The notes under the pieces are model-generated. The model saw only the letters and a program-made list of their open reading frames with translations, was not told the origin of the DNA and did no database searches. From positions 1,116,001-1,180,000 of the forward strand of contig NZ_FXXB01000008.1 in the NCBI RefSeq assembly GCF_900184245.1: DNA of 64,000 nt. The letters run 5' to 3'. Shown here one piece after another: positions 13,853-48,606 of this stretch; within the stretch, counting starts at the first letter, position 1; the number at the start of each line of letters is the position of its first letter. A program made the position numbers and the translations under genes. The stretch is from Brachybacterium massiliense (GTDB taxonomy: Bacteria > Actinomycetota > Actinomycetes > Actinomycetales > Dermabacteraceae).

Positions 13853-13884
13853 CCCCGTTCACACCCCCGACGTGAGGACGATCA

Positions 13885-23666: not shown

Positions 23667-24386
23667 TCAGAGCAGCTCGGTGATCGCGCGCAGCTGCGCC
23701 CGGTAGGTCTCGGGGACGTAGTGGAAGTAGGCGGGGCCCCACTTGTGCCCGGTGTCCGCGATCGCGTCCTCCTGGCGCACTCGCGCCACCTTGAACCCTT
23801 CGCGCTCCGCTTCATCCCAGTAGCGCAGCACCTTCTCGTTGAACCACTCGGGGGTCATGCTGGAATCGGTCTTCATCCGCTCGCCGTTCTGGTCCACGGT
23901 GGCCCACGGAGTCGCGTTGATGATCACCTTGCCGCGCAGGTCGACCTCGCGGAGGGTGTCGACGAGCTTGTAGAGCGCCCACTTCCACTGGCGAAGATGC
24001 TCATCGGTGCCGAAGGTGTACGAACCTCCCAGCGCATCGGGCTGCACCCCTGCGCGCCGGGGCACGCCATTGCGCGTGATCATCCCTCCGGACCTGACCT
24101 TCTGAACTCCCACGCGCTCGATCATCAAGTCCCAGACCATGACGTCGATCTCGGCCGCGTTCTCGGCCAGGTGGGTCGGCAGGGTGCTGGCGATGTCGCC
24201 GCGCACCATGCGCCGCTGGAAGGTTCCTTCAATACCGGCAGTATCGAACAGCTTCGCGTCAGCGGGACGATACGCGCTGATCAGCGATTGCCGAGCGATG
24301 TAGCTGTGCAGTTCAAGACCGTAATCCTCGTAGTGGTCGACAGCATCTCTGCTGGTGCACCCACCGTAGATGAACACTTTGTGCAT
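23667..24386 (-). CDS. DUF6270-like protein of polysaccharide clusters
   Basis: 239 residues from ATG 24386 (GTG 24389 is possible). It starts with IYGGCTSRDAVDHY, a G-x-C-x-SRD motif that resembles the start of SGNH-like DUF6270 proteins, which are often found in capsule and glycan loci. Further conserved-looking blocks are DVMVWDLMIERVGV and PWATVDQNGERM. The C-terminal GHKWGPAYFHY may hold a catalytic His. Function unknown; a modifying hydrolase or transferase is possible. It is convergent with wecC and divergent from the ATP-grasp gene. Confidence 0.55.
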   Translation of the reverse strand: MHKVFIYGGCTSRDAVDHYEDYGLELHSYIARQSLISAYRPADAKLFDTAGIEGTFQRRMVRGDIASTLPTHLAENAAEIDVMVWDLMIERVGVQKVRSGGMITRNGVPRRAGVQPDALGGSYTFGTDEHLRQWKWALYKLVDTLREVDLRGKVIINATPWATVDQNGERMKTDSSMTPEWFNEKVLRYWDEAEREGFKVARVRQEDAIADTGHKWGPAYFHYVPETYRAQLRAITELL

Positions 24387-24604
24387 CACTCGAGCCTATC
24401 CCCCTGCAGAGCACTATGTGCGTGATCGCCTCGCGGGGTCCACAGAACAGATCGTGCGATGCGAGACCTCCCAGCGAACTACTATCGTCCACGGGCCGTC
24501 GAGAGGGGGTCCGCACCCTGCCGGGTGCATGCGGCTCCACCGCTGCCCGGCCACCACACCGCCTTCCCGGCATCGCACCGACGGTCACGACTCGAGGAGC
24601 CCCC

Positions 24605-26005: not shown

Positions 26006-26052
26006 CCCTCCCGCACACCCACGACCCTCACGAACAACCAGGAGCCCCGCAC

Positions 26053-28699: not shown

Positions 28700-30598
28700 C
28701 TACATTCTTCGCCGCATTACTCCGGTCCGCATAAGGTCGCTATCGACACGTTCAAATCCTTCCAGTTCTTCAGTCCACTTCCTGAGGATCTCCTGCTCGG
28801 CGGGACGATGGGTATCGTCCAGAAGGACGAGGCAGCTCCCTGAGAGTAGATGCTCTAGAACAGGAAGTGCGGGCATTCTCGCTTCGTCTCCAGTTGACTC
28901 CGGAGGACCATCAACTACGAGAACATCAAAGGGGCCTTCGAGACTCTCGATGACGTCAAGGTCATACCAACTAAATGACTCTCCGCCAATCTCCATCGGG
29001 CGCAGAGCGGCGTGATGAACAGTCACCACTTCCTGCAACCCGTGCGTTTCAACTAGCTCCCGCGTCTTCTGCGCGAACGAGCGATCATGCTCAAGCGAGA
29101 CCACCTGGGCGCCCACTCGTTCAGCAAATGTCCCGATCCAAACGCTCGAGGACCCACTGCCGACTTCTAGAATCTTTTTTGGACGCTCCCGCTCTATATA
29201 GTCAGACAAGAACAAGATGGTGTCTGCCGGGAGCGCCCACCATCCCAACGGCGGATATCTACGCGTAACGGTATCCACCCGTGGAAGCAATTGAGCAAGT
29301 GCCTCTACCTGACGCACAACGTCAATAGACTGGCGCTTGGCAAACCGTTCGAGCCTTCCAGTCTGCGCCTGAATGAGGGCTCTATTGGTGGATTCGATCG
29401 CTCGAGTCATCTGAGTCAACAGAGTGGACTCCCCAGATGTCGTCTCGACGACCGACTCCGGTTCCGCATTTTCAACCACTGCAGAGCTGTCGCCAGAAGC
29501 ACGCGTCTCCACGAGAGACGAAATCTTCTCTTCGAAGCTGCGGAGCCGGCCGTCCAGACTCGCCTCTGCTTGAGCAGATGCCTCTTCGAATGCGGACTCC
29601 TTGTTGGCCGCGCGCTCCAGCGCATCTGAAACAAACGTACTAAGGTTGTCCACACCCGCCGCCAACTGTGCTACGTCGCCAGTCAGTTCTGTGCGAACGT
29701 GCTGCAGATCCGCGGCAAGATCGCTATCAATTCGCGAAAGCTCTGAGCGCTCCTTCATAAGGTCCGCAAGAACTGCGGAATGCAACGCCGCCACTTGGTC
29801 TGCGTGGTCCAGTCCCGCAGTCTCCACCGCAGCAAGAACTCGTCGCTCCGCGGCAGTAAATCGGTCGAGCGCAGTTTGGATACTTCCGTCGCGACGGAGG
29901 AAGTTGTGCATCTTCTTCACGGCTACGTTCGCGGCTTCGACGTTGGTCGTGGCTTCAGAGATTGACTTGCTCTGGGCTGCCAGAGCACGCTGGAGAGCAT
30001 CTGCGCGCACCTGGCTATCACGATTCTCACTTCGGAGAAGATTCAAAATCTTCCGCTCACGCGACTCGATAGCTTCCGTCGTTCCGGAAATCTTGCGTAC
30101 ATGCGAGGCGAGTGAACGAATCTCTTCCAACTTTACCCCAGAAGCCAAGCTCTTCTCTAGGAGATCGCCCACGCCTTCCCGGGTCTCTCGCTGGGCGACC
30201 ATGATCTCAGCTAGCCGTTTGCGAGAAGTGTGGAACTCAGAACGCAGTACATTCTGCATCTTCCGCTGGTGTGCTTCTAGTTCAAAATCTTGCTGCCGAA
30301 CAGCGTCCAGCAGCTCACGCAGGGAGTTGAACTCGTCGGAAAATCTCTTATCGAGCGATTTCAATTCGCGGATGATTCGATTCGTCCCGAGAACTCTCTC
30401 TGCGCGAAGTTGTCGCGCGTTGAGGAGCCAACCCAGTACAGTCGCACCAAATACTAGGACGAAGGTGGCCAAGAAAACTATGAACAGACTGAATCGAGGT
30501 TCGCCAATTGCGGCAGCCAGCGCAATTATCGCGACGAGCGACACCGAAACGGACACGCCACCAATCGCTAGCAGCCCCTTAAGATCCAATTTCATCAT
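28700..30598 (-). CDS. membrane-anchored coiled-coil protein with C-terminal SAM-dependent methyltransferase domain
   Basis: 632 residues. Two membrane helices (about residues 10-32 and 37-58) are followed by roughly 340 residues of charged, heptad-like sequence (RELKSLDKRF, RKMQNVLRSEF, RKILNLLRSEN). The last 180 or so residues form a class I methyltransferase: ILEVGSGSSSVWIG (motif I, about 476-489), VVSLEHDRSF (motif II acid) and FDVLVVDGPP (motif III/IV). It resembles methyltransferases acting on sugars. The domain should lie in the cytoplasm, held at the membrane by the coiled coil. The start overlaps the stop of the upstream glycosyltransferase gene (ATGA). Base composition is lower in GC than the window average. 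Confidence 0.65.
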   Translation of the reverse strand: MMKLDLKGLLAIGGVSVSVSLVAIIALAAAIGEPRFSLFIVFLATFVLVFGATVLGWLLNARQLRAERVLGTNRIIRELKSLDKRFSDEFNSLRELLDAVRQQDFELEAHQRKMQNVLRSEFHTSRKRLAEIMVAQRETREGVGDLLEKSLASGVKLEEIRSLASHVRKISGTTEAIESRERKILNLLRSENRDSQVRADALQRALAAQSKSISEATTNVEAANVAVKKMHNFLRRDGSIQTALDRFTAAERRVLAAVETAGLDHADQVAALHSAVLADLMKERSELSRIDSDLAADLQHVRTELTGDVAQLAAGVDNLSTFVSDALERAANKESAFEEASAQAEASLDGRLRSFEEKISSLVETRASGDSSAVVENAEPESVVETTSGESTLLTQMTRAIESTNRALIQAQTGRLERFAKRQSIDVVRQVEALAQLLPRVDTVTRRYPPLGWWALPADTILFLSDYIERERPKKILEVGSGSSSVWIGTFAERVGAQVVSLEHDRSFAQKTRELVETHGLQEVVTVHHAALRPMEIGGESFSWYDLDVIESLEGPFDVLVVDGPPESTGDEARMPALPVLEHLLSGSCLVLLDDTHRPAEQEILRKWTEELEGFERVDSDLMRTGVMRRRM

Positions 30599-33105
30599 GC
30601 CGTCAGCCTTCCGGTTTTTCTTGCATCCACTTGTTCAGCAATGAACTTGACGAAAGGTTCTGAGGAGAATCTTTCCCGCACAAACTCCACCCCCCGCTCA
30701 GCAATGCCATCTTCGCGCGCCGATTCGCTCAAAAGTTTCCGATAAGTCAGAACCGCATCTTGCGGATCCACCCCTATGACCGCGTTACCGAAGACTCTTT
30801 CATACCTTGGTGAACAGAGCACCGGGGTCCCCGCTGCGAGGGCTTCAATGATCGCCCGGTCCCGAGATGCACCACGGGAGCGCCGATCAAAGTGGAACAC
30901 CACGTGCACAGATCTCCAGAAGTGAATCGGATCGTGTTCAACGTTCCTAAAGGTGGTCCAAGTCGGGGGAAGTCGACGCAACCCGAGGAGTGCCTGTCCT
31001 CCGGCAGAATCCCCAAGGATCCGCACGTCAACAGCGGGATCCGTGAGGTATGCGGCTTGTGTCTCGTCGGGCTCAGGCCAGTCGGACACGAACTGGCCGT
31101 TTCCACGACCCACGACGAGGCCGAGTTCGTTCGCTTGCCTTACGGGCCGAGCAAAATATCGTTCTGAGACAACGAGTGGGTAGTCAAGGTCAAGGCAGTC
31201 AACGTTGAATCGTCGGCTGAAATCCTCGGCCTCAAGACCTTCCTCGAGGACCCACGAGCCCTCCACGCCGGTGAGTCTTCTTGCTGCCCGTCCGACTCGG
31301 CTGGGGTCATAGGTCCTCCACTCATCCGTCCGATCGTGTGGCCGATCTGTAGCTATGAAAAGGAGTCGTTCTACCTGCAGAGCCATCTCGGTGGATCTCG
31401 CATAGTCAATGACTGCAGGATCTCGCACGATCATCAGGCGCACGAGGATGTCTTCATCCGGCATGACCTGAGTGACGACACCACCATTGATCCAAGCCTG
31501 GACTATGGGATTCAGTGCGCGCGGCGAGATCGCGACACTGAACGGGGAGTCCAGGTGGAGAATTCCCACGTTAGCGCCAGCCTCGATCACGGCTCCGATC
31601 TCATCGATCGCAGCGCGTTCCAGCTCACCGTTCGCACGCCAATCCGCCACGAAACAGACATCCAGCGCGTCAGCGGTCGCTTCCTGACCAGAGATCTTGC
31701 GGGGTGCCGTGAACGGACTGACTTGCGCCCTGCCTGTGGCCAGCGCTTCCAGATGGCCGTCCTTCTGCCCATGCCACGCTCGGTAGGCGCTAGAGAAGGC
31801 AAGACGGTGCGGCGCCGTCCATCCGTGCCTAAAGTCTGCTCGCGAGAGAGAACCATGAGAGAGCCGGGTCATATACAGCGGGTCGCTGAGCTCTTCGACC
31901 GCTCCGCCGGTGTGGAGCATCAGGCGCTCCCTGAACTCGCTGTCCGCACCCTTTCGCATCGGGAGATAGCCGCCCATCGCCACGGCGTCGTCGCGCCGGA
32001 ACATCAGACTCACTTCACATCGCCGTTGCGGCAAGAACCCGACCGCGGTCCGCACCAGTCGGTCATCAGTCCTATTCGCTGCGGCGACCACACCGGCAAG
32101 GTCTTGCCGGCCATGGAAGGCGCGTAGTTGCTTCTCGATGCGCTGCGGATGCGACCAGTCATCCGTGTCCTGGCCTGTGACGTACTCCCCCTCGGCCTCC
32201 TGGATGCCGGCGTTACGTGCCAGATACGTCCCGCCGTTCTGCGGCATGCGGATGACTCGTACTCGATGATCCATGGCCCGAAGCTCATCGAAGAGCGTAG
32301 TAGGAACCTCCGTCGAGTGATCATCAACGACGAGGAGTTCGATATTGCGCCACGTCTGATTCACGATGGACCGTACCGAAGTCAGGAGCTCTGCAGGCTG
32401 AGGATTGAACGTGGTGAGGATGACCGACACAAGTGGGCAGTCATCCGCCAACGAGTCGCCGCCGGACGTCCGTTCCGCCGCGGCATCCGCCTGGCTGAGT
32501 TCGGCGGGAGGGGTCCTCGTGGTGAGGCCGTCAAACGGCACTTCTGCACCGGGGGACACGTCGATCTCGGCGAGCCCATGGGCGCGAAAGACTTCATTGA
32601 ACTTGTCCAGCCAGAGATCGCTTCCCTGCCCGTCGCCGCGTACGTAGGGGTTCAGGAGGTCTGCCTCGAAATACCCATGGTAGAGCTGCGCTAGGTCGCT
32701 ATCCGCTGCCAGAACCTTCTCGGCATCCTCGAACCGCCCGTTCCAGAAGAGTAACTCGAAGTAGAGGCTCCTCAGCGGTATCGTCGCCGAGGTCTTGGGC
32801 GCTTCTGGCACAGAATGATCCATCGCCTTAAGGGCGAGGTCGTGCTGATACTCGAGCGCGGGGCGAACTGCAACGATGCGAAACAAGCGCGCCAAGTAGA
32901 GCGAGTCGTACCCATCGAACCGCGACGCGTCAACGTCATCCACGACCTGGGCGTAGGTCTTGGTGCCACTGGATGCGAGGTGTGCGAATATCTCCAGGGC
33001 AAGCATCGACTCCGACGAGATCGCCCATCGGTCGGCACGCCAGCCGAATAGCCGGAAGTAGGCGGCTTCTTCCGCGTTGACTATGAGCTCACTGCCCTCA
33101 CTCAT
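30595..33105 (-). CDS. two-domain glycosyltransferase (GT2 plus GT4-like)
   Basis: 836 residues from ATG 33105, with GAGG seven bases upstream (GTG 33111 is possible). Residues about 1-215 are helical with tetratricopeptide-like content. A GT2 domain starts at VSVILTTFNP (about 226), with DDHSTE and QDTDDWSHP as nucleotide and metal-binding sites. The C-terminal third, from DVCFVADW to the end, is GT-B/GT4-like (IIEALAAGTPVLCSP). It shares both catalytic regions with the 971-residue protein encoded next in the operon, including DWSHPQ and GADSEFRERL/GADAEFRDRV, so the two arose by duplication. Unlike that paralogue it lacks a membrane anchor. Confidence 0.7.
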   Translation of the reverse strand: MSEGSELIVNAEEAAYFRLFGWRADRWAISSESMLALEIFAHLASSGTKTYAQVVDDVDASRFDGYDSLYLARLFRIVAVRPALEYQHDLALKAMDHSVPEAPKTSATIPLRSLYFELLFWNGRFEDAEKVLAADSDLAQLYHGYFEADLLNPYVRGDGQGSDLWLDKFNEVFRAHGLAEIDVSPGAEVPFDGLTTRTPPAELSQADAAAERTSGGDSLADDCPLVSVILTTFNPQPAELLTSVRSIVNQTWRNIELLVVDDHSTEVPTTLFDELRAMDHRVRVIRMPQNGGTYLARNAGIQEAEGEYVTGQDTDDWSHPQRIEKQLRAFHGRQDLAGVVAAANRTDDRLVRTAVGFLPQRRCEVSLMFRRDDAVAMGGYLPMRKGADSEFRERLMLHTGGAVEELSDPLYMTRLSHGSLSRADFRHGWTAPHRLAFSSAYRAWHGQKDGHLEALATGRAQVSPFTAPRKISGQEATADALDVCFVADWRANGELERAAIDEIGAVIEAGANVGILHLDSPFSVAISPRALNPIVQAWINGGVVTQVMPDEDILVRLMIVRDPAVIDYARSTEMALQVERLLFIATDRPHDRTDEWRTYDPSRVGRAARRLTGVEGSWVLEEGLEAEDFSRRFNVDCLDLDYPLVVSERYFARPVRQANELGLVVGRGNGQFVSDWPEPDETQAAYLTDPAVDVRILGDSAGGQALLGLRRLPPTWTTFRNVEHDPIHFWRSVHVVFHFDRRSRGASRDRAIIEALAAGTPVLCSPRYERVFGNAVIGVDPQDAVLTYRKLLSESAREDGIAERGVEFVRERFSSEPFVKFIAEQVDARKTGRLTA

Positions 33106-33114
33106 GCGCACACC

Positions 33115-34650
33115 TCATTCTTCCTCTGGGCGACTCGGAACTCCTGAGCCAATTGTGGTCGCATTGACCGGCCACTTCGACCGCTCCACCATCTCGTGGA
33201 GAGCCTGGGCCGCCTCCGCAGCTCCTCGAGGCGCGTCGATGTTGGACAAAGACGACATGAGCTCTTCTCGAACACCGCGGGTGGTGATGCTCGCCAGAGC
33301 GTCCCGGAGCTCGGTGATGCTCTTTGCTGTCAGAACCAGGCCCTTCTCGGCGAGCAGCCTCGCCCGGCGCTCCTGATCATCAGTCACCGTTGCCAGGTCC
33401 GGTACGAGAATGGTGGGGATACCAAGAGCAACGGCTTCCTGGGACGAGTTGTACCCAGCAGCGGAGACGACGAAATCGAACGCGCGCACCAGCGGCATCA
33501 CCGGGTACACCTCGATCTGCTCAGCATGCGGGGAGCCAGATCCCGCCGCAGCGAGCGGGGACACCACCTGTACGGGCGTTGTCCCCGGGCACAACTCGCG
33601 AACCAGCTCAGGGACATCCACACTGCCAGACCCATCGCCATCGATAGCCTGCCGTCCCACGCTGACGAGGGCGTAGGCGCCCGCCGGGTCAAGGCCGAGC
33701 TTCTCGCATGCCTCCGTACGTGTGAGCAGATCTGATCGTGAGGTACGCACGATGGGACCCACGTGAAGTGGAGAGACACCCGGGCCGGCGTCAATGTCTT
33801 CGGAACCAGCGAAGTCCCCCGGAACGATTACTTCGTCAGCAACTTTGAAAACGTCGTGCCTCTGTCGAGACGTTCGGTCCTTCTCCTCTTTCCACATGCC
33901 GCGCTGGACCCAGATGAGGGGGATATCGTTCGCACGGCACACATCGGTGAGCCCCGAGTACACCCACGTGCCGTCGAAAACGACCGCTCGCGGACAGCGC
34001 TCCTCGACGAGACGACGGAAATAAGATCGGAAGACCCGGTTCCAGCGGTGTGGACGTTCCTGCGTTGCGTCGCTCGAGGGGAAATAGTGCACCGTCAGGC
34101 CTGGCGCCCGCACCTGCTCGTAGGCCTTGGACAGGGTGAGCAGTTCGTAACGGTAGCCGTCAGGCAGCTGCTCGGCGACAGCAAGCAGTCGCGTGACATG
34201 CCCCAGCCCGGCCCCATTACTCGTCACAAAGAGCACATCGATCTGATCGGATGGCTCGGTATGGATGAATCCTGCTGTTCCCGAGACCTGAATCTGTCGA
34301 AGGGCGTCTTCGATTCTGGCCAAGGATCGTGCCTGGCGCTTCACCTGGCGCGCTTGCTCTGCCTGTGCCGTGGAGATCTTCGTGGTGAGGGTTCTGCGCG
34401 CTTTCTGCTCGTCGTCCTGGCGCTTCTTGCGCTCCTCCCGAGAAGCGCGCAGCGCCTGCACAGCGATGTCCCTCTGGCGAACCGCCGCGTACGCTGTCAC
34501 TGCCCACCCCGCACAGACCAGTACCGCTCCCGCCGTGTCGGTGATCGACGAGGAGTCGAGGACAAGCAGCACAAGTCCAGTCACGAAAACAAACGCAGCG
34601 AGGGCCAGAATCGTCCTCGTTCCTGGTCGCCGCAGCCGTGAGCCAGGCAT
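33115..34650 (-). CDS. membrane-anchored GT-B glycosyltransferase (MurG/GT28-like) with coiled coil
   Basis: 511 residues. Two membrane helices (about 13-50) precede a basic coiled coil (residues about 55-115, ASREERKKRQDDEQKARR). The catalytic part begins DVLFVTSNGAGLGHVTRLL, the glycine-rich loop of MurG-like enzymes. It continues with AVVFDGTWVYSG and a C-terminal donor site AAGYNSSQEAVALGIPTILVP. It should transfer a sugar from a UDP donor at the inner face of the membrane. Its start overlaps the stop of the 34650-37565 gene by one base. Confidence 0.7.
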   Translation of the reverse strand: MPGSRLRRPGTRTILALAAFVFVTGLVLLVLDSSSITDTAGAVLVCAGWAVTAYAAVRQRDIAVQALRASREERKKRQDDEQKARRTLTTKISTAQAEQARQVKRQARSLARIEDALRQIQVSGTAGFIHTEPSDQIDVLFVTSNGAGLGHVTRLLAVAEQLPDGYRYELLTLSKAYEQVRAPGLTVHYFPSSDATQERPHRWNRVFRSYFRRLVEERCPRAVVFDGTWVYSGLTDVCRANDIPLIWVQRGMWKEEKDRTSRQRHDVFKVADEVIVPGDFAGSEDIDAGPGVSPLHVGPIVRTSRSDLLTRTEACEKLGLDPAGAYALVSVGRQAIDGDGSGSVDVPELVRELCPGTTPVQVVSPLAAAGSGSPHAEQIEVYPVMPLVRAFDFVVSAAGYNSSQEAVALGIPTILVPDLATVTDDQERRARLLAEKGLVLTAKSITELRDALASITTRGVREELMSSLSNIDAPRGAAEAAQALHEMVERSKWPVNATTIGSGVPSRPEEE

Positions 34651-37565
34651 CAGCTGGCTCCCCGCTCGTGCAGAGCGTTCTTCCCCTTTACCACGAGCGA
34701 TGAGAGCCTGCCGGAGAAGGATTCTGCGGAGTACCGCTCCATCACGACCTCACGGGCCCGCTGGCGCTGCGCCTGCAGCTGCTCGGGATCCTGCCAGTAC
34801 TCGCGGATCTTCTCCCGCACCTGGCCGGGTTCCGCATAGACGGCACCGTCATCGAAGTTCGGGCGCATGTAACGGGGCAGGAACACCACCAGGCCGCTGG
34901 CCATCGCCTCGACCGTGGACATCCCGAAGGACTCCGTCAGCGAATCCGAGTGGAAGTACGCCCAGAAATCCAGGCCCTGCAGGAACTCCTCGGGGGCCTG
35001 CTCGCCGAACTCGACGACCGTCGCGGCGGCGCGCAGCTCCTCCTGCAGCTCCTTCGGCTGTGACGTCACGCCTCCGAGGATACGCACGTCGAGCTCGTCG
35101 TCCCCGCCATACACGGACAGGGTGGTGGAGCGCTTGTCCGGCCACTTCAGCACTGCGTCACGGGAGTGGCGACCGAGCACCGGCACCTCGCCGCGAGGCT
35201 CGTCCTGCGCAGCGGGGCGGAACCGCTCGGTATCGATGAAGCCGGGCCAGTCGTAGTCCGCGAGCACGCTCGAGTGCACCATGGTGAGGGCCAGATGCCT
35301 GGTCACCTCGCTCTCCGGCGCGATATCGGGGGTGACACCGAAGAGCTTCGCCGCGTTGTCGCGCACCGTCTCCAGATCGAACACCACGCCGGTGCCGCCG
35401 GTGAGGATGGGCGGGTTGTTCACCACCACCACCACGTGACCCACCGCGAGCTTGGTGGTGAGCGACTCCGCGAACTGGAGCACCGTGGGATGGCGGACCA
35501 CCAGGAGGTTCACATCCGCTTGGTCGTTCAGCGACAGCACCTCGACGTTGTCGAGCTGCGCGACGTCCAGAGCGCGCAGCCCGATCGAGTCCTTCGTCGA
35601 GTTCATCGGGGAGTCCAGCTGGATCATCCCCACCCGAAGGCCCCGCTGCGCCGCGAACTCGATCTCGTTGGTGGTCAGCGAGGTGGTACCGCCCGGGAAG
35701 CGGAAATCGGTGGCGAAGACGACGTCGAAGGTTCCCAGGTGCTTACCCCGCATCCCCGGCTTCATGTTCAGCGGCCGCGGGAAGTCTTCCTGCTGGAGCT
35801 TTCCGTCCACCACCTCCGCGGAGTGCAGGGAGCGGAAGTATGCGGACTGGTAGAACAGCCGCGCCGGATCGATGTAGCCGCGGCCGATCTCCCCGGCGGT
35901 CAGCGAGGCGCCGTGGGTGCGGGTGAACGAGAGCGGCGCGGTGCCCACGATCTCCACCGGCTGCTCGGTCAGCTTCACCACGCGGTCGCGGAACTCGGCG
36001 TCGGCACCGCGGTTGACGGTGTCCCATCCGCCCAGCTGGTCCACGAGCTCCCGGCGGGTCAGGAGAGAGGAGAAGTTCGCCTGGGAGAAGGAGGGGTTGT
36101 TGTTGATGCGGGTGAGCTGCAGGTCCTCGGAGGTACGAGCATGGCGGGTCATGTTCGCCGCCTGCTCCGGGTGCTCCAGCAGATGGTTCACCTGGATCTC
36201 GAGCTTCTGCGGATGCGACCAGTCATCGTCATCGTGCACGGTGACGAACTCGCCGTCGGCAACGGTGAGGGCGCGGTTCCGAGCCATGTAGGCCCCGAGG
36301 TTCTCCGGCTGCAGCAGCAGGGTGACGTCCTCGTACCGGGCGCAGATCTCCTGCAGCCGCTCGCGATGAGCGGGATCCGAGAAGTCATCGACCACGATGA
36401 TCTCGAGGTTCTTCCAGGTCTGGCCGGCCAGGGAGTCGAGCGTGGTGGTGATGTGCTCGGAACCGTTGAAGGAGGGCACGAGCACGGAGACCTTCGGCCC
36501 GTCCACGCTCCGGGCCGGCGCCTCGCAGCGCAGCGAATCCAACAGCGTGGGCCCGAGCGGCTCCCGGAAGGCGACCGGGGCGAGCTCCTCCGCCGCGTAG
36601 ACGGAGTTGAGCGCTGCCGCCCAGCGATCACGGTTCTCGGCGCTGTCCAGTCCGCGCTTGTGCACGGCGTTGAGCTCCATGAGCTTCGCCTGCATCGGGT
36701 CCCGCCGGGACAGCTTGGACTCCCGGAACACGCGGGCGGCCTCGTTGTGCTGCCCCTCGAGGGCGAGCGCCTCGGCGAACACGTAGGCGTCGCTGCGGCC
36801 CAGCTTCCCCACCCCGAAGATGTCCTTCACGAGGCGGAACAGCAGCACGGCGTCACCGGAGTCGCTGGGGGTGAGACGCTGGTTCGCGACCACGCGCGCG
36901 GTGGCGAGAATCCCCTTCGCCGACCAGCCCTTCACCACCGATCCTGCGCCCGGTGCCTTGCCGGCGCGCAGAGCCCGCACGATCCGGAGCATCTCCCCGT
37001 AGTCGAACTGGAGGTTCGTCGCCGAGCGAGCGAACGCATCGCGCATCGCGACACTCTTCGAACGCAGGGCGAAGGTCTCGAAGTGCCCGGGCGCCTTGCC
37101 CGCGCGCTCCCCGTACTCGAACTCCGTGCCGATGCCGAAGTACGCGCCGCCGCCGCCCACGGAGTTGCCCGTCGAGGTCTTCTGCATGTCCTTGCGGAGC
37201 GACTGCTTCGCGTCCTCCAGCAGTGCCTTGGATCCGGCTTTCACCGCGCCGCTCACGCCTGAGGAGTCGAAGGAATCCGCCAGCTGCGTGACCTTCGCCT
37301 TCGTGGCAGCGGTGGCTTTCGAGGTCTTGTCGAGGCTGTGATAGAGGGTGCGGGTGTCCCGCTGCTGGATCTCTCGCGCACGGACAGTGCTGCGGACCGT
37401 GTACCCGTGGGACAGCAGGATCAGGCCGAACATTCCGATCACGGCGAGAGCGAGCACGGCGGCTCCCCACTGCGTCGCACCCACAGCGAACAGCACCACG
37501 GAGATCGCAGTCAGCGCGACGCCCGCCAGTGCGAGGAGACCGAATTTCGAGAAGAGGAGCTTCAC
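34650..37565 (-). CDS. membrane-anchored bifunctional glycosyltransferase (GT2 plus GT4)
   Basis: 971 residues. Paired membrane helices (about 5-50) are followed by a helical segment (SLDKTSKATAATKAKVTQLAD) and a Gly-rich linker. The GT2 domain starts near residue 358 (VSVLVPSFNG), with VVDDFSD and HDDDDWSHP as donor/metal motifs. The C-terminal region (about 610-960) is GT4-like, with FHSDSLTESFGMSTVEAMASG, containing an ESFG-x4-EAMA nucleotide-binding pattern. Two glycosyltransferase centres on one chain suggest a repeat-unit polymerase that adds two different sugars. It is a paralogue of the 30595-33105 protein. Confidence 0.72.
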   Translation of the reverse strand: MKLLFSKFGLLALAGVALTAISVVLFAVGATQWGAAVLALAVIGMFGLILLSHGYTVRSTVRAREIQQRDTRTLYHSLDKTSKATAATKAKVTQLADSFDSSGVSGAVKAGSKALLEDAKQSLRKDMQKTSTGNSVGGGGAYFGIGTEFEYGERAGKAPGHFETFALRSKSVAMRDAFARSATNLQFDYGEMLRIVRALRAGKAPGAGSVVKGWSAKGILATARVVANQRLTPSDSGDAVLLFRLVKDIFGVGKLGRSDAYVFAEALALEGQHNEAARVFRESKLSRRDPMQAKLMELNAVHKRGLDSAENRDRWAAALNSVYAAEELAPVAFREPLGPTLLDSLRCEAPARSVDGPKVSVLVPSFNGSEHITTTLDSLAGQTWKNLEIIVVDDFSDPAHRERLQEICARYEDVTLLLQPENLGAYMARNRALTVADGEFVTVHDDDDWSHPQKLEIQVNHLLEHPEQAANMTRHARTSEDLQLTRINNNPSFSQANFSSLLTRRELVDQLGGWDTVNRGADAEFRDRVVKLTEQPVEIVGTAPLSFTRTHGASLTAGEIGRGYIDPARLFYQSAYFRSLHSAEVVDGKLQQEDFPRPLNMKPGMRGKHLGTFDVVFATDFRFPGGTTSLTTNEIEFAAQRGLRVGMIQLDSPMNSTKDSIGLRALDVAQLDNVEVLSLNDQADVNLLVVRHPTVLQFAESLTTKLAVGHVVVVVNNPPILTGGTGVVFDLETVRDNAAKLFGVTPDIAPESEVTRHLALTMVHSSVLADYDWPGFIDTERFRPAAQDEPRGEVPVLGRHSRDAVLKWPDKRSTTLSVYGGDDELDVRILGGVTSQPKELQEELRAAATVVEFGEQAPEEFLQGLDFWAYFHSDSLTESFGMSTVEAMASGLVVFLPRYMRPNFDDGAVYAEPGQVREKIREYWQDPEQLQAQRQRAREVVMERYSAESFSGRLSSLVVKGKNALHERGAS

Positions 37566-37650: not shown

Positions 37651-38913
37651 TCAGAGACGGACAGCCGGCTTCGGTGCGACGCCTCGGGTGTCGAGCATGA
37701 CCTTGGCCGAGCTCGCGAGCTTCTCGAGGTCGTAGGACTCGTGGGCCTGGAGCACCACCACCACGTCCGCACTGGCCACTGCGGCGTCGAGGTCGGCTTC
37801 GCGGGTGACGTTGCCGCTCTCCAGGTTCCAGGTCTCGACCATCGGATCGTGGAAGCGGATCACGGCGCCGCGCTCCCGCAGAGCCTCCGCCACCGGCATG
37901 GCCGGCGACTCGCGCTGGTCTGCGATGTCTGCCTTGTAGGTGACGCCCAGCAGCAGCACCTCGGAGCCATTTAGCGGCTTGCGATGGTCATTGAGCATCT
38001 CTCCCACTCGATCGACCACGTACCGCGGCATGGAGTTGTTGATCTCCTGCGCGAGCTCCACGAACCGGAACGGGTAGCCGAGCTGATTGCGCACCTCGTA
38101 GGAGAGGTAGTTCGGGTCGATGGGGATGCAGTGACCTCCCACGCCCGGTCCGGGCGTGAACTTCATGAAGCCGAACGGCTTCGTCGAGGCGCCGCGGATG
38201 ACCTCCCAGATGTCGATGTTCAGCTCCTTGCAGAACTTCGTCATCTCGTTCACCAGCGCGATGTTCACGTGACGGAACGTGTTCTCGAGCAGCTTGGCGG
38301 TCTCCGCCTCGCGCATGCCGTCCATCGGCACGGGCTCATCGATGAACGTTCCGTAGAAGGCCACCGCGGCCTGGGTGGAGGCGTCGTTGATGCCGCCCAT
38401 GAGCTTGGGCGTGTTCTTGATGCCGTAGTGCTTGGATCCGGGATCCACCCGCTCCGGGGAGTAGGCGAGCTGGAAGTCGGTTCCGGCGGTGAGCCCTGAC
38501 GCCATCTCGAGGATCGGCTTGACGATGTCATCGGTGGTGCCCGGGTAGGTCGTGGACTCGAGGATCACGGTGGTGCCGGAGGTGAGGTTGTCTCCCACGG
38601 AGCGGCTGGCGCCCTTGACCGCGCCGAGATCCGGGCTGCCGCCGTCGCCCAGCGGAGTGGGCACGCAGATGACCACCACGTCCGAGGTGGAGACCGCCGA
38701 CTGGTCCGTGGTCGCGCGATATCCCAGGTCGAGCATCTCCTGGATATCGGCATCGCTGAGGTCGTCCACGTGGGACTTCCCCGAGTTCAGCGCGTCCACC
38801 AGGGATTCCGTGACGTCGAGGCCGTTGACGGCCCATCCGGCGCGCACCGCAGCCTGCGCGAGCGGCAGCCCCACGTAGCCCTGCCCGACGATGGTGACTG
38901 TCTTGCTGGTCAT
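37651..38913 (-). CDS. UDP-N-acetylhexosamine 6-dehydrogenase (WbpA/TviB-like)
   Basis: 420 residues. NAD loop IVGQGYVGLPLAQAA, substrate helix EAETAKLLENTFRHVNIALVNE, and the catalytic Cys in PGPGVGGHCIPIDPNYLSY. The ending IPIDPNYLSYE separates it from WecC-type enzymes and is typical of UDP-GlcNAc/GalNAc dehydrogenases of the WbpA/TviB group. It would supply a UDP-aminouronic acid for the polymer. The gene lies between the glycosyltransferases and UDP-GlcNAc 2-epimerase, so UDP-ManNAc oxidation is an alternative. Confidence 0.82.
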   Translation of the reverse strand: MTSKTVTIVGQGYVGLPLAQAAVRAGWAVNGLDVTESLVDALNSGKSHVDDLSDADIQEMLDLGYRATTDQSAVSTSDVVVICVPTPLGDGGSPDLGAVKGASRSVGDNLTSGTTVILESTTYPGTTDDIVKPILEMASGLTAGTDFQLAYSPERVDPGSKHYGIKNTPKLMGGINDASTQAAVAFYGTFIDEPVPMDGMREAETAKLLENTFRHVNIALVNEMTKFCKELNIDIWEVIRGASTKPFGFMKFTPGPGVGGHCIPIDPNYLSYEVRNQLGYPFRFVELAQEINNSMPRYVVDRVGEMLNDHRKPLNGSEVLLLGVTYKADIADQRESPAMPVAEALRERGAVIRFHDPMVETWNLESGNVTREADLDAAVASADVVVVLQAHESYDLEKLASSAKVMLDTRGVAPKPAVRL

Positions 38914-38956: not shown

Positions 38957-40162
38957 TCATGGGGTCTTGTCGTTCTCAGCGGAGAAGTCCGAGGGTCTCT
39001 CTGCGCCGATGAACTTCCATCGGATCGCGCCCACAGCGCGCTCTGCGGCGTTCCCGTCTCCGTACGGGTTCACTGCGTTCGCCATGCCGTTGTAGGCCTC
39101 CTGCGAGTCCAGCAGCAGGGAGACCTCGTCGACCAGCCGCTGGCGATGCGTGCCGATCAGCTTCACCGTCCCGGCGATCACCGCTTCCGGTCGTTCGGTG
39201 TTCTCCCGCATCACCAGCACCGGCTTGCCGAGGCTGGGGGCCTCTTCCTGCACTCCCCCGGAGTCGGTGAGGACCACGTCCGCCAACGTGATCGCCTTGG
39301 TGAACTGAGCGTACGGAAGCGGCTCGAGGAGCACCACGTTCTCGCGCCCCTCGAGGAAGGGCACCACCGAGCTGCGCACCTTCGGGTTCATGTGCAGGGG
39401 AAAGACGATCAGGAGCTGGGGGTACTTCTCGGCGAGGTCGGCCACGGCCTGCCCGATCGAGGACATCGCCTCGCCGAGGTTCTCGCGGCGATGCGCGGTG
39501 ACGAGCAACACGGGCTGCTCGGACCCTTCGGCCTTCTCGCGCCGCAGCCTCTCGAGCCGGGGGTCCTGGAACTCCACCTCGAGGTTCTCCGCGGCGAAGA
39601 ACAGGGTGTCGATCACCGTGTTGCCGGTGACCACGATGTCCTTCTCCCTGATGGCCTCGCGCAGCAGGTTGTCGCGACTCGTGGGCGTCGGGGCCAGGTG
39701 GAGTGCAGCGACCTGCCCGGTGAGGCGCCGATTGGCCTCCTCGGGGAACGGTGAGTCGATGTTGCCCGAGCGGAGCCCGGCCTCGAGGTGGATCACGGGA
39801 ATGTGACGGTTGAAGGCGGCAATCGCAGCCCCCATGACGGTGGTGGTGTCGCCCTGGACGATCACCGCATCGGGCTCCTCCGCGGCGAGCACTTCGTCCA
39901 CCCCTGCGATCACCCGTGCCGCGATCTGATTCAGGCCCTGACCACTCGCCATGATGTTCAGGTCGTGATCAGGAAGGATGGCGAACATGTCGTTGACCTG
40001 ATCGAGCATCTCGCGATGCTGGCCGGTCACCACGACGATGTTCTCGAGCCCCTCGGCGCGCTCGATCTCCTTGATGATCGGGGCGACCTTGATCGCCTCC
40101 GGTCGAGTGCCGTAGATCGTCATGATCCGCCGGTTGCGCGCCGAAGCCTCCGTGCTCGCCAT
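38957..40162 (-). CDS. wecB: UDP-N-acetylglucosamine 2-epimerase, non-hydrolysing
   Basis: 401 residues from ATG 40162 (GTG 40165 possible). Family motifs: YGTRPEAIKVAPII, VVTGQHREML, DAVIVQGDTTTVMGAA, IHLEAGLRSG, LLVTAHRREN and TDSGGVQEEAPSLGKPVLVMRENTERPEA. It converts UDP-GlcNAc to UDP-ManNAc. With the dehydrogenases at 22386 and 37651 it gives UDP-ManNAcA, a usual building block of teichuronic-type polymers. It is the first gene of the minus-strand operon that runs to 28700. Confidence 0.92.
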   Translation of the reverse strand: MASTEASARNRRIMTIYGTRPEAIKVAPIIKEIERAEGLENIVVVTGQHREMLDQVNDMFAILPDHDLNIMASGQGLNQIAARVIAGVDEVLAAEEPDAVIVQGDTTTVMGAAIAAFNRHIPVIHLEAGLRSGNIDSPFPEEANRRLTGQVAALHLAPTPTSRDNLLREAIREKDIVVTGNTVIDTLFFAAENLEVEFQDPRLERLRREKAEGSEQPVLLVTAHRRENLGEAMSSIGQAVADLAEKYPQLLIVFPLHMNPKVRSSVVPFLEGRENVVLLEPLPYAQFTKAITLADVVLTDSGGVQEEAPSLGKPVLVMRENTERPEAVIAGTVKLIGTHRQRLVDEVSLLLDSQEAYNGMANAVNPYGDGNAAERAVGAIRWKFIGAERPSDFSAENDKTP

Positions 40163-40452
40163 CACGCGAGAGCCACCATGGCGGATGCGTCGGTCGAGGC
40201 GCCATGGGGGACGGGATTCAGGATGCTCACAAGTTTGAGACTACCCAACCCTGAAGGCGAGGTTGTGCATCGTTCACTAATTGTCACTAGGACGTCATTC
40301 ATGCTGTGTCCCACGACTCGCTACTGAAGGGTCACCCCTCGTCGTTCCCGAGCCGGCCGGCTCCGCGAGTCCTCCAGCGCAGCATCCCGGGCTCATGCGC
40401 CGCCCACCCCACCGTAAGATGACACAGCCCCCTCGCCGTCCTGGAGGTCTCC
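40163..40452. promoter_or_regulatory. divergent intergenic region between wecB and the GT4 gene
   Basis: 290 bases with no convincing gene. It is relatively A/T-rich around 40230-40300. TTGTGC at 40263-40268 with ACTAGG 17 bases further is only a weak promoter pair for the plus strand, and TAGTCT on the minus strand is a possible -10 for wecB. It must hold promoters for both directions, but none is convincing. GGAGG at 40441-40445 serves the downstream GTG. Confidence 0.35.
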
Positions 40453-44836: not shown

Positions 44837-45880
44837 TCAGCGCTCGTCGTCCGAGGGCAGGATCGCTCCCGGGAAGGGCTGGGCCTTCATCTCACGTTCG
44901 AAGATCTGGGCGAAGGGGTCCGGCTCGAGCTCGGGGACGCCGTCCGACGGCGCCTTCTCCTTGTAGCTCGGCAGGGTCAGATGCGCGGCCTTGCGCTGCG
45001 CCGCACCTTCGGTGATGCACTCTCGCAAGTGCTGGAAGGCTTCCTCGTCGCGCTCCTTCGCCAGGAAGTAGGCGAAGGTGCGGTACTTGCTGGATACCTC
45101 CTTGGTGTCGCCATCCATGACGATGCGCCCCTTCTCCATCCAGATCACGCGAGAGCAGACGTTCTCGATCGTGCGGGGAGCATGGTTCACCATGAACACG
45201 GTGCCGGCCTTCTCCAGCAGGTCGTCCATCTTCTTCGCCGATCGTTCGGCGAACGCGGCGTCTCCCGTGGACAGCGCCTCGTCGATCATGAGGATCTTCG
45301 GATCGGCCATCACGGAGATCGCGAACTTCAGCCGGGAAGCCATTCCCGAGGAGTACGTGCGCATCGGAAGATCGATTGCCTCGCCGAGAGCGGAGAGCTC
45401 GACGGCCGCGTCGAACTGCTCCTCAGCCTGCTCGGGAGACATCCCCAGCGCCAGGAACCCCATCTTGATGTTCTCGGCCCCGGTGAGATCTCCGATCAGC
45501 GCGGCGCTCACTCCGAGCAGCTGCGGCCGTGCGCTCGTCATGACCACGCCGGAGGTGGGCGGTTCGACGCCGGCGAGCATGCGCAGGAGGGTCGACTTCC
45601 CGGAGCCGTTCCGACCGATGATGCCGATGAACTCCCCTTCCCGTGCCGTGAGGTCAGCACCCCGCACAGCGGAGACGGAGACCATGTGGCGGCGGCGGGC
45701 CAGCTTGCCCAGCAGGCCCTTCCGCGGAGTGCGATCGGTGCGGGGGACCTTGTAGCGCATGCGCACGCTGTGCGCGACCACGGTGAGTGGGGAGTGCTCC
45801 GGCGGCACCCAGAGGTTGCTCGAGATGCCGGCTTCCTGCTCCCCTGGCTGCGTCCAGGTCTCAGCGGAGTTCTCGGCCAT
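44837..45880 (-). CDS. polysaccharide/teichoic-acid ABC exporter, ATP-binding subunit (TagH-like)
   Basis: 347 residues. Walker A GRNGSGKST, signature YSSGMASRLKF, Walker B ILMIDEAL and the His switch in MVNHAPR are all present. The signature differs from the canonical LSGGQ, as is usual for polysaccharide exporters. A C-terminal extension of about 80 residues follows the ATPase core. It overlaps the permease gene by 20 bases. Together they should export a lipid-linked glycan across the membrane. Confidence 0.88.
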   Translation of the reverse strand: MAENSAETWTQPGEQEAGISSNLWVPPEHSPLTVVAHSVRMRYKVPRTDRTPRKGLLGKLARRRHMVSVSAVRGADLTAREGEFIGIIGRNGSGKSTLLRMLAGVEPPTSGVVMTSARPQLLGVSAALIGDLTGAENIKMGFLALGMSPEQAEEQFDAAVELSALGEAIDLPMRTYSSGMASRLKFAISVMADPKILMIDEALSTGDAAFAERSAKKMDDLLEKAGTVFMVNHAPRTIENVCSRVIWMEKGRIVMDGDTKEVSSKYRTFAYFLAKERDEEAFQHLRECITEGAAQRKAAHLTLPSYKEKAPSDGVPELEPDPFAQIFEREMKAQPFPGAILPSDDER

Positions 45881-46757
45881 AGCTCTCCTCCCCTCGCCAG
45901 AAGAAGATGAAGCCTCCGAGCGGCAGCAGCACCGCCCAGGCTCCGAGGATCAGCCAGGACTTCATGTCCGGCACGGCGCCGTCGATGAGCACAGTGCGGG
46001 ACATGTCGATGACCCGAAACAGCGGGTTGAGCATCACGATCTCGCGGATGGTCGGGTCGCTGACGAAGCGTTCGATGGGGAACATGACGCCGGATCCGTA
46101 GCGGAGCATGCGGCTGATGATGGACATCAGGTTCGTCATGTCCGGGAAGTGGAATCCGATGCGAGCGGTGATGAAGGTGATGCCGAGGTTGACCAGCAGG
46201 TGCATCAGGAAGATCGGGATCAGCAGAGGCCAGGTGACCTGAGGCAGGGCATGCGGGGGCACGAGCATGATCGCCACGCACATCGCCGCCGTGGTGATGA
46301 CCGCGGTGAGACCGCTTTGGAGCACGTTCGAGATGGGGATCGCGGCGCGCGGGAACGAGAAGGCTCGGAGCATCGACTTCGCGCCGCGCATCGTGTTCGC
46401 GCCGGAGGAGAAGGCGCTGCTGGTCGCCTGGAACATCAGGATCCCGATGACGAGGAAGGCCGGGAAGTTCTCGATACCGCGATCCACCTCGAGCAGCACC
46501 GCGAAGATGAGGTAGTAGAACGCGGCATCCATCATCGGGCGGATCACCAGCCAGAGGTTCCCGAGGATGTTGCGGGTGTTCTGGGTGGCGGCACGGCGGC
46601 GGGAGTCGTACCAGATGAAGTGCCGGCGATCCCACAGTTGGCGCAGGTACTCCGGCAGAGGCGGCATGCCCCCGAAGGGGAAAAGACCGCTCGGATCCTG
46701 CCCTCGAGCCTCGAGCGCGCGCGCGACCTCGGAGTAGCTCTTCACCTCATTCGCCAC
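45861..46757 (-). CDS. polysaccharide ABC exporter permease (TagG/ABC-2 type)
   Basis: 298 residues from GTG 46757, which overlaps the end of the glycosyltransferase gene by 11 bases; a longer frame from 46793 would overlap more. An amphipathic N-terminus (LPEYLRQLWDRRHFIWYDSR) and six membrane helices match ABC-2 permeases for O-antigen and teichoic acid. The stretch NTRNILGNLWLVIRPMMDAAFYY is typical of this family. Partner of the 44837-45880 ATPase. Confidence 0.88.
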   Translation of the reverse strand: MANEVKSYSEVARALEARGQDPSGLFPFGGMPPLPEYLRQLWDRRHFIWYDSRRRAATQNTRNILGNLWLVIRPMMDAAFYYLIFAVLLEVDRGIENFPAFLVIGILMFQATSSAFSSGANTMRGAKSMLRAFSFPRAAIPISNVLQSGLTAVITTAAMCVAIMLVPPHALPQVTWPLLIPIFLMHLLVNLGITFITARIGFHFPDMTNLMSIISRMLRYGSGVMFPIERFVSDPTIREIVMLNPLFRVIDMSRTVLIDGAVPDMKSWLILGAWAVLLPLGGFIFFWRGEESYGRELR

Positions 46758-48606
46758 GTCGGGTCCCCTCGGCCGTTTTCTCCACGAGGGCACGATACGC
46801 GACCTCGTAGCGCTTCATCATGGCTGGCCACGTGCGATCCATCGCTGCCGCTCTGCCGCGGGTGCCCAGATCGGCTCTCCGGGCATCGTCGTCCAGCAGA
46901 TCGTGGATCGCCGTCGCCAGCTCTCGCGGTGACTCCGGGGGCACGAGGACTCCGAGATTCTCTCCGCCCGCGCCGATGAGCGTCTCGCGGAGCGCGGGAA
47001 GGTCGCTCGCCACCACGGGCCGTCCCAGAGCCATCGCCTCCGCCGGCTTCTGCGGCGTCACCGTGCGCGTGACCTCGAAGTCCTTCCGCGGCACCGCCAC
47101 GAGGTCGAGCGCCTGCACCCAGGTTCGAGCCTGTGAGCGGGGCACCCGTCCCGGCATCACCAGCCGGTCGCTCAGGCCGAGCCCGGCGGCGAGCTCGGCG
47201 AGATGAGGCGCGGTGACGCCGTCGCCGACGATCACCACGTACAGGCGTTCCTTGAGCTGATCCGGGACGCTGTGATCCGCGAGGATGTGGGCAATCGCTC
47301 GCAGCAGGACGTCGTGTCCCTCGTAGTCGACGAGGGCGCTCACCGAGCCAACCGCCAGCGCGTCGCCGGGAAGCTGCAGCTCGAGCCTCGCACGTGCCTC
47401 GGCGGGATCGAGTCGCTCCTCCAGCAGCGAGGCATCGACCCCGTTCGGCACCAGGGACATCCGCTCCGCCGGCACGCCTCGATCGTTCAGCGTCTCGGCC
47501 ATCGTCCGGGACAGGGTCACCACTGCACCTGCCTCGCGCGCGAGTCCGCTCTCCTGCTCGACGATCCGCCGCACCTTCTCCGAGTCCGCCGCGACCTGCC
47601 GGAGCTCCTCGATGCGGTGACTCGCGATCCACGTCTGCTCCATCAACCCGCGGACCTCGAACAGCCACGGGATCCCGGTCGCCTCGCTAACGGCTTGGGC
47701 GACCAGGGCATTCCTGTAGTCCGTCGTGGCATGCAGGACATGGGGGCGGAACTCGTTCACGAGCTCGAGTGCTTCCTCGACCTCCTGCCGGAGGCGCCCC
47801 TCGGGCGTGCTCGCCAGTTTCGCGGGCAGAGCTCGGCGGTAGTGGATCCCGTCGACCACATCCTCGTCGGCGCACCAGGGCTTGCCGATCATCACCGGGT
47901 ACCCGGTGCGGGTGAGGGCGAGGGAGTCGATCCCGTGATCCCGCAGCCCTCGAAGGATGTTGTGCGTGCGCAGCGCATATCCGGACTGGGTGTGAGGCAG
48001 GGAGTTCGTGATCAGATGCAGCACCCGCAGGCGCTCACCTCGTGCAGCACGCGTGCGGTGAACGGCGTTCCGCGGCGCCTCGACTCTGTGGCCGGCCGTC
48101 AACAGATGCAGTTCGCTGCGCAGTCGGCGCGCCTGGGGAGACGTCCCTCGACCCGCGGAGTCGAGGATCGCCACCGCACCGCTGAGATCGCCCATCGCCC
48201 AGGCGGCGCGCGCTCGGGTCGAGGGCGATGATTCCTCCGTGACCAGGTCGGGCCGGCCAAGAAGAATGGCGACCTCGCCCTTCAGTGCGGTGGAGCTGCC
48301 AGGTTCCTCGACGATCTCGCTCGCCCGGTCGATGTCTCCCGCCATGAACGCTCCCAGCGAGGAGATTCCAGCTCCGCGAGGGACGAGTGCTCCGAGCAGA
48401 GTGAGGGTCCGACCCGCTCCCACCCGGGCGGCGAGCGGCATCCTGCGGCTGATCTGGACGGCGAAGAGGGCAGGATCGTCGATCAGATGCTGCACGGCGG
48501 AAGCACCCAGCGTGCGGGCGTTCCGGAGGGTGCGCGGCCCACTCTGCCGTGCCCTGGCCACCATCGACGTCATCCGCCGAGAGGCGTGCACGGGAAGGGA
48601 GTTCAC
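46747..48606 (-). CDS. GT4-family glycosyltransferase with N-terminal helical region
   Basis: 619 residues from GTG 48606. About 190 residues of mainly helical sequence precede the GT4 fold, which starts at LRVLHLITNSLPHTQSGYAL. The donor site carries SLVPNGVDASLLEE, VGSVSALVDYEGHDVLL, VMPGRVPRSQA and KPAEAMALGRPVVASD. The product should be a cytoplasmic, membrane-associated transferase that extends the exported polymer. It is the first gene of the exporter operon. Confidence 0.82.
   Translation of the reverse strand: MNSLPVHASRRMTSMVARARQSGPRTLRNARTLGASAVQHLIDDPALFAVQISRRMPLAARVGAGRTLTLLGALVPRGAGISSLGAFMAGDIDRASEIVEEPGSSTALKGEVAILLGRPDLVTEESSPSTRARAAWAMGDLSGAVAILDSAGRGTSPQARRLRSELHLLTAGHRVEAPRNAVHRTRAARGERLRVLHLITNSLPHTQSGYALRTHNILRGLRDHGIDSLALTRTGYPVMIGKPWCADEDVVDGIHYRRALPAKLASTPEGRLRQEVEEALELVNEFRPHVLHATTDYRNALVAQAVSEATGIPWLFEVRGLMEQTWIASHRIEELRQVAADSEKVRRIVEQESGLAREAGAVVTLSRTMAETLNDRGVPAERMSLVPNGVDASLLEERLDPAEARARLELQLPGDALAVGSVSALVDYEGHDVLLRAIAHILADHSVPDQLKERLYVVIVGDGVTAPHLAELAAGLGLSDRLVMPGRVPRSQARTWVQALDLVAVPRKDFEVTRTVTPQKPAEAMALGRPVVASDLPALRETLIGAGGENLGVLVPPESPRELATAIHDLLDDDARRADLGTRGRAAAMDRTWPAMMKRYEVAYRALVEKTAEGTRRGE

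Follow-up and report, generated by a model that had tools for sequence, protein, structure and literature searches.

Four contiguous genes in a 64,000-nucleotide stretch of DNA from Brachybacterium massiliense (the whole stretch is called the window hereafter) encode three glycosyltransferases and a putative O-methyltransferase, MT632, whose catalytic domain is predicted to sit at the far end of a long helical stalk that starts from a membrane hairpin. We propose that this stalk-mounted methyltransferase works with a membrane complex of polymerizing enzymes, caps the chain and, through its stalk, biases chain length. As a whole, this is the best explanation that we can offer, and we give it an even chance of being right. 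To our knowledge, it is largely an open question how Gram-positive actinobacteria control the chain length of their wall and capsule polymers.

The gene cluster and its surroundings

The original prediction described four contiguous ORFs, overlapping by 1-4 bases at two of their junctions. All four are present on the minus strand, and both overlaps are there. The features of the cluster are as follows:

23667..24389, minus strand: DUF6270 protein, a possible further cluster member beyond an ISL3 insertion
28700..30598, minus strand: MT632; hairpin at aa 9-56, predicted helical stalk with heptad periodicity at about aa 60-440, COMT-like class I O-methyltransferase domain at about aa 442-632
30595..33111, minus strand: GT838; GT2 domain and a weakly matched GT4-type domain, without membrane helix; GT2/GT4 paralogue of GT971
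33115..34650, minus strand: GTB511; hairpin at aa 13-57, charged linker without heptad signal, GT-B domain (Glyco_tran_28_C)
34650..37565, minus strand: GT971; hairpin at aa 10-52, low-confidence linker to about aa 156, helical region at aa 160-324, GT2 and GT4-type domains
37651..38913, minus strand: WecC-like nucleotide sugar dehydrogenase, probably a UDP-N-acetylmannosamine dehydrogenase by its profile matches; 85% identical in the G026 cluster (see below)
38957..40165, minus strand: WecB-type UDP-GlcNAc 2-epimerase (TIGR00236, 9.8e-136)
44837..45880, minus strand: Wzt/TagH-like ABC ATPase of the exporter; a 61% relative stands beside wecB in G026
45861..46793, minus strand: Wzm-like ABC2_membrane permease of the exporter; 51% identical in G026
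46747..48606, minus strand: GT4-family glycosyltransferase adjoining the exporter, probably an adaptor or a further polymer transferase; a partial relative stands beside wzm in G026

In transcript order the genes run wecB, wecC, GT971, GTB511, GT838 and MT632, with gaps of 43, 85, -1, 3 and -4 bases. The exporter genes (44837-46793) are separated from wecB by 4671 bases that hold opposite-strand ORFs, namely an stp3-like GT4 transferase and a heparinase II/III-like ORF with an extra C-terminal part (40453-44794, plus strand), which interrupt the polysaccharide cluster. A search of 118 relatives gave a methyltransferase match in just one further genome of the genus, G026, which carries a contiguous row of a partial GT gene, wzm, wzt, wecB, wecC, a GTB gene (with hairpin), a gene of the GT838 type and a methyltransferase gene, MT720; no separate GT971 gene was seen in this row. 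Since the same set is contiguous in G026, the window genes probably represent one interrupted cluster. The G+C content declines from 0.673 in GT971 through 0.628 in GTB511 and 0.604 in GT838 to 0.557 in MT632, and the cluster therefore looks patched together by transfer.

The UDP-GlcNAc epimerase passes its equivalog model. For the dehydrogenase, only the subfamily model TIGR03026 is passed, with the UDP-ManNAc dehydrogenase models ranking next, below their cut-offs; hence, its exact sugar can be named only tentatively. Together, the genes would specify the machinery that assembles, at the cytoplasmic face of the membrane, a surface polysaccharide exported by the ABC system; this polymer would be capsular or teichuronic-acid-like and would probably contain N-acetylmannosaminuronic acid.

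Several other genes nearby deserve mention. An ISL3-family transposase (26633-27919, minus strand) lies between the DUF6270 and ATP-grasp genes on one side and MT632 on the other; Zn_ribbon_ISL3 has 13 matches in the window's genome, and the ORF at 25741-26610, which adjoins the transposase, may be cut short. The ATP-grasp protein (24416-26005, plus strand) resembles the ligase part of cyanophycin synthetase (9.6e-57, 7.2e-55), has relatives in loci L052 and L064 as well, and could possibly decorate the glycan with amino acids. Near the synthesis cluster, 18834-21293 (plus strand) encodes a member of polysaccharide lyase family 8 that starts with a single hydrophobic segment in its N-terminal part. 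Six further methyltransferase loci, from actinobacteria and Lysobacter, encode relatives of the DUF6270 protein (L090, 10819-11631; L095, 5353-6249; L108, 5407-6210; L192, 5958-6728; L087 and L214, which seem to be one record, 3209-4060); that of L090 is 63% identical to the window's protein and adjoins the methyltransferase gene. In these proteins the motif G-[GS]-C-x-[SA]-R-D is conserved close to the N-terminus and H-x-W-G towards the other end, a pattern that looks SGNH-like. No mention of DUF6270 was found in a search of open-licence papers.

MT632 carries a predicted helical stalk between hairpin and catalytic domain

On the Kyte-Doolittle scale, MT632 begins with a pair of membrane segments (9-27/38-56), and the flanking charges weakly place both ends of the hairpin in the cytoplasm. 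The stalk that follows, of about 390 residues, has a heptad contrast of z 3.9; in MT720, its relative in G026, the contrast is z 9.9. AlphaFold models the MT632 stalk as nearly all helix (34-153, 157-236, 239-261, 266-367 and 381-440) with modest confidence, there being blocks of pLDDT 40-73 between 61 and 420, and in the model the methyltransferase domain lies at the far end of the stalk, opposite the predicted hairpin.

The catalytic domain matches Pfam Methyltransf_24 (3.9e-11), and its modelled fold is COMT/TrmR-like, with matches to TrmR (Z 20.1, rmsd 2.4, 182 aligned) and COMT (Z about 18). WbdD is not among the fold matches listed, which is uninformative either way, and no kinase domain was found in MT632. 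Across 30 aligned sequences, D563 and D595 are invariant and D594 is nearly so; matched by motif order, these three may correspond to the COMT metal ligands (two Asp, one Asp/Asn). MT632 is probably an active O-methyltransferase, its catalytic domain joined to the membrane by the hairpin and the predicted stalk.

Paired membrane helices in three neighbouring enzymes

Two of the glycosyltransferases also start with a membrane pair, GTB511 at 13-31/39-57 (the second segment scores 1.65, barely above the cut of 1.6) and GT971 at 10-28/34-52, with flanking charges that fit both hairpin ends inside the cell; GT838 has no membrane segment on the same scale. The paired N-terminal helices predicted earlier for three of the four enzymes are thus borne out, and they exceed chance, since an N-terminal pair with no further membrane segment is present in 12 of 937 coding-like control ORFs of related loci, at least half of these 12 apparently being second methyltransferase copies or the G026 GTB relative.

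What follows the hairpins differs among the three. The same prediction spoke of coiled-coil or helical linkers, which holds in part: it fits the MT632 stalk, but the linkers of GTB511 (z -0.6) and GT971 (z -1.6) lack heptad periodicity and do not resemble the stalk. The GT971 linker is modelled as helix to residue 99, but with pLDDT below 50 over 69-85 and 96-147. Given that the heptad signal is confined to the methyltransferase stalk, the idea that all three enzymes assemble through coiled coils is not supported.

The GTB511 catalytic part matches Glyco_tran_28_C (27.9 bits, cut-off 22). In GT971, the GT2 domain is nearest to heparosan synthase 2 (8vh7_A, Z 29.2, rmsd 2.3, 260 aligned) and the GT4-type domain has weak Pfam matches; such a two-module layout is what would be expected of a polymerase.

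It may be asked whether the common N-terminal plan is a coincidence, with hairpins being easily gained and the enzymes acting independently at the membrane. No convincing sequence similarity was found among the N-termini of MT632, GTB511 and GT971 (best blastp E 0.15; phmmer at most 6.6 bits), as such a reading would have it, and only 3 of 46 GT2/GT4 proteins, the window's two included in the 46, have the pair (window GT971, one from Arachnia and one from Luteimonas; a fourth, in G067, locus L054, is outside the 46 counted). As a shared plan, then, the membrane pair is not fixed in GT2/GT4 proteins. However, pairs are rare in the controls, yet three neighbours bear one, and the catalytic parts are linked by the fusions and co-occurrence described below. 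We therefore regard coincidence as quite improbable.

Co-occurrence and gene fusions

Whether the three hairpin-bearing proteins occur together in other genomes was checked in 118 related genomes, with cut-offs of E 1e-3 for MT and GTB and 1e-20 for GT971. Each pair co-occurs above expectation: MT and GTB in 7 genomes (1.76 expected), MT and GT971 in 5 (1.10 expected), and GTB and GT971 in 6 (1.36 expected), with p from 2.4e-4 to 1.4e-3, or 1e-3, 6e-3 and 1.7e-3 without the window's own genome. All three are matched in 4 of the 118. The matches are not always neighbours, GTB being about 27 kb away in G075 and on another contig in G063 and G071.

Fusions of neighbours are found as well. Among 19 GTB511 relatives in loci selected for a methyltransferase (window and G026 included), 12 are fused to GT2/GT4-type modules. 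One, of 1410 residues, from Arachnia, consists of a hairpin, GTB (aa 166-518) and a GT838-type part (aa 603-1406); in the other 11, the GT4 half of a GT971-type protein is followed by GTB. Both fusion types repeat the gene order of the window. The hosts of the 11 are nine Jiangellaceae-type genomes, one Cellulomonas and one Arachnia, and since nine come from one group, the 11 stand for few independent events. Gene fusion is the best evidence that the products work together, and it argues better for a complex than coils do.

Taken together, the co-linear genes, the co-occurrence and the fusions make a membrane complex of these enzymes, which the original prediction had put forward as a possible glycan assembly complex, likely. 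Within it, GT971, GTB511 and GT838 would form one membrane-held polymerase that adds the repeat sugars in turn.

Free hairpin-helix proteins and the possibility of docking

In methyltransferase loci we also found free proteins of 108-217 residues made of a membrane pair and a charged tail. They are present in 10 of 35 loci with GT2/GT4 genes versus 1 of 109 others (p 2e-6), and several of their genes abut a GT2/GT4 gene. These counts derive from 31 small two-helix ORFs, of which 12 were short methyltransferases, 6 were omitted by eye as their tails did not look helical, and 13 were used; one more GT2/GT4 locus, L077, which would be the eleventh, came up under looser search conditions and is not part of the count, and the 35 loci include at least three pairs that resemble one genome twice (L078/L188, L080/L186 and L073/L187).

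The tails of 12 free proteins were compared with 87 methyltransferase stalks by phmmer. There were 26 matches at E <1e-3, chiefly from L072, L100 and L103, versus none with reversed stalks and none with ten shuffled sets; at E 1e-2 there were 50, versus 10 reversed and 0-4 shuffled. A subgroup of free proteins (L051, L069 and L128) resembles chiefly itself. This controlled comparison replaced a loose motif search for a shared stalk segment, which had given 8 of 87 stalks (shuffled mean 1.2, highest 5).

These proteins bear on an alternative in which the stalk is chiefly a docking platform: by pairing of its helices with those of hairpin-helix partners, fused in GT971 and GTB511 and free elsewhere, the methyltransferase would nucleate the polymerase. 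The enrichment of the free proteins in GT2/GT4 loci, the tail-stalk matches and the hairpin-helix that heads the fused GTB-GT838 protein of Arachnia all favour docking. On the other hand, the six ORFs omitted by eye are all in loci without GT2/GT4 genes, and with them restored the contrast drops to 10 of 35 versus 7 of 109 (p 1.2e-3); moreover, the window's GT linkers lack the periodicity of the stalk, and most GT2/GT4 loci have neither a free nor a fused hairpin. We rate docking as the main role of the stalk at somewhat under an even chance.

Spacer length varies widely in the methyltransferase family

Genome contigs scanned with full-length MT632 gave no relatives. With an alignment of seven catalytic domains, 248 were found in named genomes; of these, the 79 best-matching loci were taken, so that this sample leans towards the window's sequence. 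At E 1e-25, the domain is present in 69 of 394 genomes of the class. Among the best 79 of the 248, a membrane pair precedes the methyltransferase domain in 68, one segment in 5 and none in 6, and the spacer between pair and domain spans 29-364 residues. MT632 of the window (391) and MT720 of G026 (473) exceed this range. When all 144 distinct methyltransferases are counted, the pair is present in 113. In L100 (Stackebrandtia albiflava), two ORFs of 667 and 680 aa behind the methyltransferase gene (11045-13048 and 13143-15185) likewise have an N-terminal membrane pair and no further membrane segment.

Of the 68 paired relatives in the best 79 of 248, 27 have spacers of at most 50 residues and 9 of at least 170. 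Spacers of 50 residues or fewer cannot be long rulers; hence, the basic role of the family must be something else. On a tree of 112 of the 144 methyltransferases (those paired and with a usable domain; L224, a weak and odd match, was left out of the tree and the rank tests), the long-spacer state (at least 170) changes six times, at least five of these changes being forced by well-supported branches. Long-spacer members come from actinobacteria, Lysobacteraceae and one Myxococcota bin.

MT632 might then be an ordinary anchored O-methyltransferase whose methyl groups decorate the repeat unit or an acceptor sugar, and whose stalk is a tether or scaffold that has no effect on length. This would suit the 29 of the 68 paired relatives (best 79 of 248) whose spacers of at most 60 residues cannot measure long chains, many short-spacer relatives coming from Bacteroidota, Balneolota, cyanobacteria, Planctomycetota and Chloroflexota, and it would also suit the presence of an end-reading module in only one of the scanned exporters, that of L105 (see below). 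It leaves unexplained, however, the repeated changes of stalk length on the tree and the weak trend of long stalks towards loci with an ABC exporter. Plain decoration is, in our estimate, a substantial possibility that falls well short of even.

Exporters and the ruler hypothesis

An ABC exporter is found within about 10 kb of 6 of 10 methyltransferases with a spacer of at least 170, as compared with 3 of 133 others (Fisher 1.5e-6), the window being left out of these counts as its exporter is 14 kb away. Against other paired methyltransferases only, the figures are 6 of 10 versus 3 of 102 (6.7e-6); when the exporter rule is relaxed, L070 (spacer 124) and L136 (spacer 44) gain an exporter, giving 5 of 102 (p 8e-6). 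Among loci with GT2/GT4 relatives, 6 of 8 with long spacers have the exporter versus none of 30 others (rank test 5e-4), and a rank test over all loci of at least 14 kb is weak (p 0.02). No exporter was found in the examined stretch of the long-spacer loci L090, L083, L180 and L137, or in that of L098 (spacer 183 by one measure, 159 by the other). Thus, long spacers tend to adjoin ABC exporters, but the association is suggestive only, because the cut-off of 170 was picked after the data were seen, the trend is gone at a cut-off of 130, and correction for kinship leaves 6 independent pairs with about 2.6 in the expected direction and 0.1 opposite (sign test p 0.25).

Wzt_C, the end-reading module of WbdD systems, has no match at E 0.01 in the window's Wzt and none in the exporter ATPases of L077 and L108, while it is present in one of the two ATPases of L105; the scan covered these four loci, with L095, L118 and G026 outside it. 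Given that Wzt_C was not found in the window, L077 and L108, a stalk that worked as a ruler with no such end-reading module would imply that export is controlled otherwise than in the E. coli model.

Proteins of at least eight helices beside the methyltransferases were considered as Wzy or Wzx candidates and rejected, as 7 of 8 scanned are Acyl_transf_3 plus SGNH acyltransferases; the eighth, from L118, has no Pfam match. By Pfam, such acyltransferases stand near the methyltransferase in L067, L072, L074, L100, L103, L078 and L108 (693-707 aa, with 677 in L067 and 968 in L108), and by length and helix count alone in L075, L076, L079, L080 and others. They occur in loci with an ABC exporter, such as L108, and in loci without one.

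Returning to the capping methyltransferase that we prefer, MT632 would most likely methylate the non-reducing end of the growing chain. The stalk would keep it away from the polymerase, such that only chains above some length could reach it; with this distance, stalk length would bias product length, as it does in WbdD. These steps are not equally secure. That the glycan is methylated by MT632 we consider fairly likely, that MT632 caps the chain is in our view evenly balanced, and that the stalk controls chain length, as the analogy would suggest, is possible but on balance doubtful.

The findings may also be seen more broadly, as a modular scaffold used in several phyla: a hairpin with a helical stalk, fused or free, would dock enzymes, and terminator stalks that have repeatedly grown longer, reaching about 470 residues, would set the length of ABC-exported polysaccharides in actinobacteria and Lysobacteraceae, mostly without an end-reading exporter. 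We offer this generalization as tentative and rather unlikely in its entirety. The family is a test case in any event, with natural spacers of 29-473 residues on one kind of enzyme and defined partner genes, in which stalk length can be set against polymer length. The free hairpin-helix proteins, for their part, would represent a new class of small scaffold subunit that annotation easily misses.

Comparison with known systems

In WbdD of E. coli O9a and O8, a long helical spacer holds the methyltransferase apart from the membrane end, and the system includes an ABC exporter and a multi-module GT polymerase (PMC3482155, PMC11231755); the O8 enzyme is methyl-only (PMC3482155). Coiled-coil rulers with a distal terminator are described for the E. 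coli O9a and Klebsiella systems (PMC11231755, PMC3482155). The likeness to WbdD drawn in the original prediction, with the long coil as ruler or scaffold, stands as far as geometry goes: MT632 has a predicted membrane end, a predicted helical spacer and a distal methyltransferase, in a cluster with an ABC exporter and several GT modules. It does not extend to the exporter's end-reading module, and since this was looked for and not found, we do not file the window's system as a member of the WbdD type. Unlike WbdD, MT632 also has the reverse order, with hairpin first and catalysis last, a predicted membrane hairpin in place of an amphipathic helix, a COMT-like methyltransferase with no kinase domain found, and an actinobacterial host. 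The window's system probably works in a similar manner.

In K. pneumoniae O7 ORF6 and O12 WbbB, terminator and polymerase modules are on one coiled-coil protein, and the O4 and O7 polymerase partners interact in two-hybrid tests (PMC11231755). The window resembles the O7 and O12 systems in having a putative terminator distal on a predicted coiled coil and polymerase modules that are variably fused or split; it differs in that its enzymes are encoded as individual proteins, and three of these bear their own hairpin. A Gram-positive precedent for a capping O-methyltransferase in an ABC system is WsaE of the Geobacillus S-layer glycan, which combines the methyltransferase with GT modules and is encoded with wzm/wzt (PMC2943079). 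Unlike MT632, WsaE is described as a soluble, trifunctional single protein with the methyltransferase N-terminal, and its methylation is independent of chain length in vitro (PMC2943079). The teichuronic acid synthetase of Micrococcus luteus (TUAS) is a membrane-bound transferase complex that makes a ManNAcA-glucose polymer (PMC3005890) and is, as proposed for the window, a complex at the membrane for a ManNAcA polymer in an actinobacterium. Its subunits of 54 and 52.5 kDa, however, do not match GT971 or GT838 in size, and the portions of PMC3005890 examined give no genes and mention no methyltransferase.

A search of open-licence papers turned up no title dealing with a stalked actinobacterial methyltransferase, which makes for a weak negative. 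The polysaccharide cluster as such is ordinary, and the stalk and the modular anchors are what is unusual. What seems to be new is the combination of a hairpin-anchored COMT-like methyltransferase with its domains in reverse order, a spacer of extremely variable length, a distribution across many phyla and free hairpin-helix partners.
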